A program made the position numbers and the translations under genes. Below, piece by piece: positions 58,944 through 61,231 of a stretch of 64,000 nt of DNA. A model generated the notes under the pieces. The model worked only from the letters and a program-made list of their open reading frames with translations. It was not told where the DNA came from and ran no database searches. Within the stretch, counting starts at the first letter, position 1. The number at the start of each line of letters is the position of its first letter. The stretch is from Streptomyces cinnamoneus. Lineage in GTDB: Bacteria; Actinomycetota; Actinomycetes; Streptomycetales; Streptomycetaceae. The stretch lies in the NCBI RefSeq assembly GCF_002939475.1, contig NZ_PKFQ01000001.1, forward strand, positions 4,089,001 through 4,153,000, written 5' to 3'.

Positions 58944-60050
58944 TTACGCCGAGGCGTTGCCCTTGCGGCGCTTGACGAGGAAGAGCGCACCCGCGCCCGC
59001 GACCACGGCGGCACCGCCGATGCCCGCGACCACGGGCACGGCGGAGGACGAACCGGTCTCCGCGAGCTTGCCGGTGACGGGGATCTCGGCGCGCTCGCCC
59101 TGGGCGGTGGCCTTGTTCCCGGCAGCGGCCTGCTCGGCCTTGTGGGCCTGCTCGACGCTGCCCGGCTTCCCCGGCTTGCCCTTGGCGTCGCCGACCTTGC
59201 CGGGCTTGCTGCCGGGGGTGAGGACGGTGAAGTCGAACTGGCTGATCCCGTCGGAGCCGCACTTGCCGTCGGCACCGAAGGAGTGGCCGATGGTGAAGAA
59301 GTAGCCGGTTCCGGCCTGGGCCTTGTCGCCGGCCTTGATGCGCATCTTCGCGTCGGCGTACTCGCCCGGCTTGATGTTCTTCACGGTGGCGAAGTCGTAG
59401 TTGTCGAGGGCCCCGGCGCCGCCGCCCTCGATGGCCTTCCAGCTGCGGGTGGCCGGGTTGTACCACTCGACGGTCACGTCCAGCTGGGCGATGTCGTCGA
59501 GCTTGGGGTCGGCGGTGCCGAGCATCAGGGAGACGTCGGCCTCCACCACGGTGACCTTGGAGACGTTGGTCACCCGGTAGGTGAACTCGTGCCAGCCCGA
59601 GCCGGCGACGATCTTGCTCGGGAGGCCGCGCAGCCCGGTCTTGCCGCGGTCCTCGTCGAAGATCGGCGAGCAGGAGCCGGAGCGGCTGAACGAGGGCGAC
59701 GGCGTGACCTGCGGGGCCTTGGAGGGCTCGGCCGAAGGCGTGGACGGCGCGGCGGAGGGCTTGGCCGACGGGGCGGGCCGGCTGCCGTCCGTCGTCCCGC
59801 TGCCGGGCCCGGTGGACGGCCGGGTCTCCTCGCCGGGCCGGCCGATCGGCGAGGGAGCGGCCGAGGGGGCGGCGGAGGCCGCGGGCTTGCCGTCCGCCGC
59901 GGGCGCGTGCTCGGCCGCGTGGGCGGGCGAGGCCACCAGCTGCGACAGGGGCCCGAGGGAGGTCAGGACGGCGCCGGGGGCGGCGAGCAGGGCGACGGGC
60001 CCGACTGCGGCCATGACGGCGGCGGTCGCCAGGGTGCGGCGAAACTTCAT
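58944..60050 (-). CDS. Sortase-anchored surface protein (LAETG)
   Basis: A 368-residue cell-wall protein. The signal peptide ends near residue 46 (ASPAHA-AE). A ~75-residue Pro/Ser/Ala wall-spanning stretch follows. The folded part (~residues 125-285: GWHEFTYRVTNVSKVTVVEA, TVEWYNPATRSWKAIEGGGA, FFTIGHSFGADGKCGSDGIS) is a beta-rich domain with two cysteines. A second low-complexity stretch (Gly/Lys/Ala) ends with the sortase signal LAETG, a hydrophobic helix (VPVVAGIGGAAVVAGAGALF) and RRKG. LAxTG is the class E sortase signal in Streptomyces. Ligand unknown. Confidence 0.92.
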   Translation of the reverse strand: MKFRRTLATAAVMAAVGPVALLAAPGAVLTSLGPLSQLVASPAHAAEHAPAADGKPAASAAPSAAPSPIGRPGEETRPSTGPGSGTTDGSRPAPSAKPSAAPSTPSAEPSKAPQVTPSPSFSRSGSCSPIFDEDRGKTGLRGLPSKIVAGSGWHEFTYRVTNVSKVTVVEADVSLMLGTADPKLDDIAQLDVTVEWYNPATRSWKAIEGGGAGALDNYDFATVKNIKPGEYADAKMRIKAGDKAQAGTGYFFTIGHSFGADGKCGSDGISQFDFTVLTPGSKPGKVGDAKGKPGKPGSVEQAHKAEQAAAGNKATAQGERAEIPVTGKLAETGSSSAVPVVAGIGGAAVVAGAGALFLVKRRKGNASA

Positions 60051-60695: not shown

Positions 60696-61010
60696 TCAGA
60701 TGCGCCCGCGGCACAGTTCGAGCAGGGTCATGGCCAGTGCCGTGCCGGGCCTGCCGAGCTGCTCGCTGTAGTGGCCGAGGACCTCCATCTCGCGGGAGAG
60801 GCTGACGCGGCGGCCGCCGGAGGCGATGCGCTCGCGCTGGATCACCGCGGACACGGCCATCCGTTCCTGCACGAGCCCGATGATCCGGCCGTCGAGATCG
60901 TCGATCCGGCCGCGGGCGTCCGTGATCACGTCGACGGCCTCGTCGGTGTGGGCCCCGGTGGCGGCGGGCCGGCGGGTCGCGGTGGCGGCGGGGCTCTCGG
61001 TGGCGCTCAT
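60696..61010 (-). CDS. Chorismate mutase (AroQ type)
   Basis: A 104-residue AroQ-fold enzyme converting chorismate to prephenate, the branch to phenylalanine and tyrosine. The ~20-residue N-terminal tail is Ala/Thr-rich and the helical domain reads AVDVITDARGRIDDLDGRII, GLVQERMAVSAVIQRERIAS, RVSLSREMEVLGHYSEQLG; the arginines and Glu of the active site (ARGRID, SREMEV) are in place. No signal peptide, so it is the cytoplasmic form. GGAG precedes the ATG. It lies behind a leader peptide and terminator (61057-61194), which would link expression to aromatic amino acids. Confidence 0.9.
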   Translation of the reverse strand: MSATESPAATATRRPAATGAHTDEAVDVITDARGRIDDLDGRIIGLVQERMAVSAVIQRERIASGGRRVSLSREMEVLGHYSEQLGRPGTALAMTLLELCRGRI

Positions 61011-61056
61011 GTGTGTTTCTCCAAAAAGGGCGCGGCCCCCGGAGCGGCAGGACCCG

Positions 61057-61101
61057 GGAAAAACGACAGGCGCCCCGGGCCTTGTCGGCCCGGGGCGCCT
61101 G
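61057..61101 (-). terminator. Attenuator terminator upstream of chorismate mutase
   Basis: A perfect 15-bp stem CAGGCGCCCCGGGCC / its complement (61067-61081 and 61087-61101, loop TTGTC), followed on the minus strand by TCGTTTTTCCC. A T-run after a GC stem is unusual in Streptomyces and marks an intrinsic terminator. It sits between the leader peptide stop (61114) and the mutase start (61010), so most transcripts would end there unless the leader ribosome stalls. Confidence 0.85.
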
Positions 61102-61113
61102 GGAAGTCGCTTG

Positions 61114-61194
61114 TCAGTTGCTCAAGCAGCACGACCATGGCAGCCGGACGGGCCCGGTGCCATAGGTAAAGACGAAGGTCAGGTGCTTGCGCAT
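61114..61194 (-). CDS. Aromatic amino-acid leader peptide of chorismate mutase
   Basis: A 26-codon ORF beginning MRKHLTFVFTYGTG and ending RLPWSCCLSN. Codons 7-11 spell Phe-Val-Phe-Thr-Tyr and codon 20 is Trp. Phe9 is TTT and Tyr11 is TAT, both rare in this genome where TTC and TAC dominate, consistent with ribosome stalling when charged tRNA is scarce. It ends 13 bp before the terminator hairpin. No ribosome-binding site; CATACT at 61202-61207 would start transcription at or next to the A of the ATG, giving a leaderless transcript, as known for other Streptomyces attenuators. Confidence 0.7.
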   Translation of the reverse strand: MRKHLTFVFTYGTGPVRLPWSCCLSN

Positions 61195-61201
61195 GGCCGA
61201 C

Positions 61202-61231
61202 AGTATGGCCCGTGCGCGGCCCCGGGGCCAA
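61202..61231 (-). promoter_or_regulatory. Promoter of the leader/chorismate mutase transcript
   Basis: On the minus strand TTGGCC (61226-61231) and CATACT (61202-61207) are 18 bp apart. The start point, seven or so bases after the -10 box, would fall on the leader ATG at 61194. Confidence 0.5.

Follow-up and report, generated by a model that had tools for sequence, protein, structure and literature searches.

The pheL leader of Escherichia coli has a Shine-Dalgarno start and is not known to sense Tyr. It shares with the element proposed here a Phe leader linked to Phe-tRNA charging and a target enzyme with a chorismate mutase (CM) activity, although the pheA product is described as a bifunctional CM-prephenate dehydratase in the account given by PMC11802643. 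In the actinobacteria, the aroF (DAHP synthase) operon of Corynebacterium glutamicum is preceded by aroR, a leader with Phe-Tyr-Phe (PMC11802643; PMC4046766, after Neshat et al., 2014), which is comparable as an actinobacterial leader peptide that relies on ribosome stalling in the aromatic pathway. According to the passages of these sources on aroR, it differs in its target, which is DAHP synthase instead of CM, and in its response, which is reported for Phe and not for Tyr. The gene following the leader described below is a CM gene, which separates it from a leader of the aroR type.

Within Streptomyces, trpL, leuL and ilvL are likewise short ORFs before amino-acid genes, several of them leaderless and followed by a hairpin and a U stretch, but they concern other amino acids and genes (PMC8079986). 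The list of leader peptides in the same RNA-seq reannotation of S. lividans has eight entries, and a CM leader is not among them (PMC8079986). The uORFC-13-1 motif of Acholeplasma and environmental sequences, located before aroF, is similar in combining a Phe-coding uORF with a terminator at an aromatic-pathway gene, and differs in its organisms, its gene and its RBS start; the likeness is one of description (PMC8632094). A comparative survey of the Actinobacteria from 2005 states that it saw no conserved RNA structures ahead of the Phe and Tyr operons (PMC1262725), and the passages on leaders, small ORFs and attenuators in PMC4633059, PMC11133741, PMC13236596 and PMC1173090 do not show the element. 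In the open-access literature, we found no description of an attenuator or leader for CM, be it in Streptomyces or in the Actinobacteria at large, which leaves its absence in print unproven, and none of mycobacterial Rv0948c with a leader and terminator. The first-pass annotation of the locus, which knew of no Phe/Tyr case for a Streptomyces CM, agrees with this search, although aroR is an actinobacterial Phe/Tyr precedent. The attenuation mechanism is known from E. coli pheA and C. glutamicum aroR, and a member controlling CM in Streptomyces appears to be undescribed.

The leader region of the CM gene and its conservation in Streptomyces

The window, meaning the whole stretch of 64,000 nucleotides analysed, contains the following parts on its minus strand. 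A −10-like hexamer CATACT (61202–61207), read from the sequence and kept in position in 110 Streptomyces loci, marks a putative leaderless-type promoter. It is separated by 7 nt from the ATG at 61194, with which a leader ORF of 26 codons begins (61114–61194; MRKHLTFVFTYGTGPVRLPWSCCLSN, stop codon TGA), taken from the ORF list and matched by leaders in Streptomyces relatives. The codons TTC GTC TTT ACC TAT (61162–61176), encoding Phe-Val-Phe-Thr-Tyr, are the candidate sensing codons by their conservation. They are followed by a predicted leader hairpin (61137–61163), in which arm 1 pairs with arm 2 (AUGGCACCGG with CCGGCUGCCAU) and whose arm 1 overlaps the Tyr codon, by a predicted antiterminator (61087–61154), and by an intrinsic terminator hairpin of 15 bp (61067–61101) with the tail TCGTTTTT (61059–61066), recognised by reading and by a terminator scan. 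A Shine-Dalgarno-like GGAG (61019–61022) was identified by eye before the proposed regulated gene, which encodes a CM of 104 amino acids (60696–61010). In the protein profile search, the ORF 61010–60696 reached 117.5 bits with NF005894 (cut-off 73) and 24.8 bits with Pfam CM_2, just below the cut-off of 27. The first-pass annotation had reported the hexamer, the leaderless-type ORF with TTT and TAT, the 15-bp GC hairpin and the CM gene in this order, and all of them were recovered.

The upstream gene guaA is divergent and the same strand directly upstream of the leader is gene-free, and it should therefore be CM transcription that the terminator affects. A consensus scan of the region found no sigma-70 promoter, and the promoter is thus assigned from the conserved −10 alone. 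The sequence TTTACCTATGGC occurs once in the 64-kb window and in 0 of 100 shuffles, and the fold of the 184-nt leader has a z-score of −5.3, with equally good folds in 0 of 200 shuffles. A gene for a sortase-dependent surface protein with an LAETG motif lies about 650 bases downstream of the CM gene on the minus strand (58944–60050). Outside the window, the home genome contains a second, weak CM match (G000:C1:1791905-1792123) with 28.8 bits, below the family cut-off.

The leader was compared across 110 Streptomyces loci, consisting of the best 30 of the genus CM search, including that of the window, and the best 80 of at least 445 relatives. The selection was by closeness to the query, not at random; it contains 95 different leader segments among the 110, and some genomes may occur twice, once in each set. 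The second Phe codon is TTT and the Tyr codon TAT in 110/110, so that the loss of the leader ORF or of its Phe/Tyr codons, which had been named as grounds for giving up the attenuator reading, was not seen in close relatives. The first sensing position is TTC in 103 loci, TAC in five and TCC in two, and is thus aromatic in 108/110, the number in which the aromatic motif was also found automatically; in the two exceptions (L065 and L072), Ser (TCC) replaces the first Phe in an otherwise intact leader that keeps TTT and TAT. Codons for pathway products are therefore clustered within a short leader ORF in these loci. Both invariant codons are rare: TTT accounts for 8 of 344 Phe codons (2.3%) and TAT for 13 of 260 Tyr codons (5%) when 30 long frames with high GC3 in the window are counted from stop to stop, with untrimmed gene starts. 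Pairing does not explain the conservation of TTT, since it is unpaired in the predicted leader fold.

The promoter region is similarly uniform. The hexamer is CATACT in 108 of the Streptomyces loci, CATAAT in one and TATACT in one; the gap from its end to the start codon is 6–7 nt in 110/110; the start codon is ATG in 107 and GTG in three; and none of the 110 has a Shine-Dalgarno-like sequence before the leader. A length of 26 codons holds for 17 of the loci, that of the window among them, and as a rule it has to be replaced by 23 codons (86/110; other lengths in seven).

Hairpins, antiterminator and modelled ribosome positions

The intrinsic terminator lies between the leader ORF and the CM gene (stem 61101–61067), and consists of 15 pairs, 14 of them GC, with a 5-nt loop and a tail containing five T. 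Two terminator-like sites were found in 1.2 kb, as opposed to a mean of 0.5 in shuffled sequences, and the other site has only 5 pairs. In the Streptomyces alignment (A1), RNAalifold identified only 3 of 30 pairs with both sides changed; conservation within the genus is too high to show more, and a diverse alignment (A2) was therefore used. It comprises 69 sequences, 57 of them further ones (four of the same genus) and 12 from the 110 loci, and leaves out 15 loci of the families f18, f16, f14 and f6 and one identical segment. On A2, 95% of the terminator cells are paired, and changes affecting both partners occur in 9 of the 15 pairs and in 85 cells; 0 of 500 shuffles were as good, and controls with slid columns reached at most 21 cells.

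The longest T run within 16 nt past the stem core is at least 3 in 65/110 Streptomyces loci and at most 2 in 45/110. Many of them thus lack a U-tract as good as that of the window, and termination at the T-poor loci may depend on a factor or on a mechanism that works with few U. L004, L008, L012, L014 and others keep the terminator stem with almost no T run after it.

For the leader hairpin, 90% of the cells on A2 are paired and 21 cells are changed on both sides (0/500 shuffles), with 23 such cells and only 22% pairing in the control slid by +2 columns. On A1, there are 14 both-side cells against 6.3 in shuffles (0/500), and 31 in the control slid by −3 columns. The compensatory stem changes that the first-pass annotation expected in relatives are present on A2, strongly for the terminator and less cleanly for the leader hairpin.

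The antiterminator predicted in the window pairs GGCCCG..GGC.GCC.TGG..GCTTG with CAAGC..CCA.GGC.GCC.CGGGCC and includes the terminator's 5′ arm, which makes the two predicted folds mutually exclusive. A pairing of leader with terminator arm had been proposed from GGGCCC and CGGGCC; the folds predict a much longer antiterminator than this, with inner helices formed around the stop codon. The antiterminator region folds as a single unbranched hairpin in 69/69 sequences of A2. Covariation in fixed columns was not above shuffles on A2 (cells paired 223/500, score 500/500) and weakly positive on A1 (4 both-side cells against 1.0, 2/500); we ascribe the negative result on A2 to inner helices and a pairing register that would vary among genera. 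A swap test was used in which native halves were compared with halves from other genera at fixed boundaries; an earlier version had been rejected as biased because its boundaries were derived from the native fold. The native halves reached a mean of −31.4 kcal/mol versus −27.2 kcal/mol for swapped halves and were better in 22/22 genus-level groups (Wilcoxon p 5e-7), while by single sequence only 9/69 beat 95% of the swaps. When the spacer from stop codon to terminator was shuffled, z was below −1.64 in only 25/69. In most folds, 3′ segments with the complete terminator are more stable than the antiterminator, so that the switch must be kinetic and decided during transcription.

The sensing codons lie in or just before arm 1, and the leader stop codon is located 36–48 nt past the Tyr codon, inside arm 2, in 69/69 sequences. 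Ribosome positions were modelled for 167 sequences (the 110 Streptomyces loci and 57 of A2) with a footprint assumed to reach 16 nt from the P-site codon and a probability threshold of >0.5. The 5′ arm of the terminator was held by upstream RNA in 167/167 with a modelled stall at the second Phe codon, in 143/167 with a stall at Tyr, in 102/167 without a ribosome, and in 6/167 with the ribosome at the stop codon, a value that is low partly by construction because most of the RNA upstream is then covered by the ribosome. For the window, the modelled probabilities are 0.90 (Phe stall), 0.68 (Tyr stall), 0.41 (no ribosome) and 0.29 (stop codon).

We interpret the locus, with a probability of roughly 80%, as a pheL/trpL-like, ribosome-mediated transcription attenuator, which senses the charging of Phe- and Tyr-tRNA and controls CM. 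Transcription would start at or beside the leader ATG, and the ribosome would load without a Shine-Dalgarno sequence. When charged tRNA is ample, it would pass TTC, TTT and TAT to reach the stop codon and cover arm 2, which would allow the terminator to form and yield a transcript of about 136 nt ending near 61059. When Phe-tRNA (or Tyr-tRNA) is scarce, the ribosome would stall on TTT or TAT and cover arm 1, leaving arm 2 to form the long antiterminator with the 5′ arm of the terminator, and RNA polymerase would enter the CM gene. Judging from these models, more CM appears to be made when Phe or Tyr run short. The attenuator reading put forward in the first-pass annotation is thus supported by conserved leader codons and promoter spacing, stems with compensatory changes and a long predicted antiterminator. 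Points that speak against it are the short T runs at 45 of the loci, the fixed-column result for the antiterminator on A2, the upstream pairing that the model favours in 102/167 even with no ribosome, and the missing entry in the S. lividans list.

The leader ORF could instead encode a functional, conserved micropeptide, with incidental RNA structures, and the conservation of the N-terminal half of the peptide in the genus would fit this. The C-terminal half, however, is translated in a different frame from that of the common leader of 23 codons in the window and nine further loci (L003, L032, L034, L035, L038, L040, L041, L046 and L047), in which the RNA CCGGCTGCCATGGTCGTGCTGCTTGA is kept. 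C-termini also vary among genera and families (GCHGRAA, GAIAAA, AVPVV), whereas the stems are kept by compensatory changes, which makes a micropeptide very improbable. We give equally little credence to a metabolite riboswitch or T-box that controls the terminator behind a fortuitous ORF. The leader is structured and has a terminator and antiterminator, as such a switch would, but all Rfam candidates were far below their gathering scores, at chance level, with no T-box among them. Conservation is moreover centred on in-frame, rare Phe/Tyr codons and the position of the stop codon, and the related element before DAHP synthase (see below) carries Phe/Trp/Tyr codons instead.

A variant compatible with attenuation deserves more weight, namely that the leader senses only Phe, or a general slowing of the ribosome, and that the Tyr codon is kept for pairing. 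TAT lies inside the stem of the leader hairpin, so pairing alone could maintain it; the modelled stall is weaker at Tyr than at Phe (143 versus 167 of 167); and the response reported for C. glutamicum aroR is to limitation of Phe, not of Tyr, in the passage concerned (PMC11802643). In other families, however, Tyr follows Phe in frame despite different stem sequences, and we consider this variant possible, at somewhat less than even odds.

Distribution of the element before CM

A covariance model (R1) was built from the 69 diverse sequences of A2. In the home genome, it gave one strong match of 118 bits; the next match (36 bits) covers this site on the complementary strand, and the remaining 22 rows, none above 27 bits, mostly match the terminator or hairpin in part. 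The element was detected in 195/199 genomes of the genus (E 1e-9), and CM matches also in 195/199 (E 1e-15). Two of the four genomes without the element are also without a CM match (G103, G152) and two have one (G008, G073); in G114 and G139, the element is present and the CM match absent at the threshold of the CM search (E 1e-15).

Beyond this set, the sequence upstream of CM was read at another 80 matches, 40 from a family search (37 of other genera, three of the same genus), 20 from order and family searches and 20 from families elsewhere in the class. A search for the Phe-Tyr motif was successful in 73/80; the other seven (L130, L139, L140, L193, L194, L216 and L217) lacked the motif or gave no CM hit on rescan, and L193 and L194 each represent a divergent second CM copy in the genome concerned. 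Of the 73 leaders, 72 have TTT as the codon preceding Tyr and 67 have TAT for Tyr itself, counts that are descriptive and not a test, as the motif pattern was written post hoc and asks for TT(T/C) and TA(T/C). The gap between the Phe and Tyr codons is 3 nt in 57, 0 nt in 15 and 4 nt in one, which is possibly misparsed. Examples of leaders beyond the genus are MFSTTHFAFTYGTGWSGCHGRAV, MLANRRFFYGYGPGSLAIVGC, MFDQRFFYYGTGSPAAVGRA and MLNMQRRFFYGYRPAVPVV.

Among the further loci of three class families, a leader was found in 14/19: 9/13 in f6, 4/4 in f18 and 1/2 in f16, where the contig of the locus counted as lacking one ends too soon. Including three earlier loci, an FFYGY-type leader precedes CM in 10/16 loci of f6 (L215, L240–L244, L246–L248 and L251, with FPYGY in L241). 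In f18 (L198–L209, L255–L258), Phe-Tyr leaders precede CM and most end in FYG(G/D)R.RSP..R, with L206 and L208 differing. Only short hairpins of 6–11 pairs follow the leader in this family, so the switch may work differently there. In the genus g14, which belongs to the family of the home genome, two of the genomes listed have a CM match and 14 have none (E 1e-10); L139 of this genus has no leader and L140 gave no hit on rescan. By sequence comparison, the element appears to be unusually well conserved across Streptomyces and to recur in related actinobacteria.

A related element before DAHP synthase

The class-wide RNA search with R1 also identified full-length elements in the families f17 and f26. 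Fourteen of the full-length matches were fetched, of which 10 precede DAHP synthase (L222, L223, L225–L229, L231, L232 and L234, in f17 and f26); L224 has a Phe/Tyr leader outside these 10, and L230, L233 and L235 look coincidental. Only L222 was run against NCBIfam, where a 155-residue piece reached 159.6 bits with NF006421, whose cut-off of 335 applies to the whole protein; the other nine were recognised by the match of their N-terminus. The DAHP synthase leaders include MRTAFWFWYGDGPESVRHLTLR and MQRNFWRFYGYRPISPVACKALR, and in 9/10 Trp stands within the cluster of Phe/Trp/Tyr codons, as opposed to only L021 and L102 of the 110 Streptomyces CM leaders. In many CM leaders from other genera, a Trp codon stands four positions past Tyr (GTGWSG), and Trp may therefore play a role in them. 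With reservation as to this Trp, the leader content seems to follow the place of the enzyme in the pathway. In the home genome, a crude check saw no Phe/Tyr cluster upstream of prephenate dehydratase and of the main type II DAHP synthase. The genome also has another match to type II DAHP synthase, which is partial.

Since the sequences are similar and FYGYRP is found in both f6 and f17 leaders, the elements before CM and DAHP synthase probably share descent. We consider it an even chance that they represent an old aromatic attenuator family, spread through the class Actinomycetes, that moved between CM and DAHP synthase and had its leader re-coded to fit. If this is true, a Phe/Tyr leader would precede CM, the enzyme of the Phe/Tyr branch, and a Phe/Trp/Tyr leader would precede DAHP synthase, with which the route to all three amino acids begins.

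The finding of a near-universal candidate in Streptomyces contrasts with the outcome of the 2005 survey, and its switch can be defined and mutated part by part. The flux through chorismate supplies many natural products, so that removal of the terminator would be a simple handle for engineering. The way in which the leader seems to have been re-coded before DAHP synthase would illustrate clearly how attenuators evolve.
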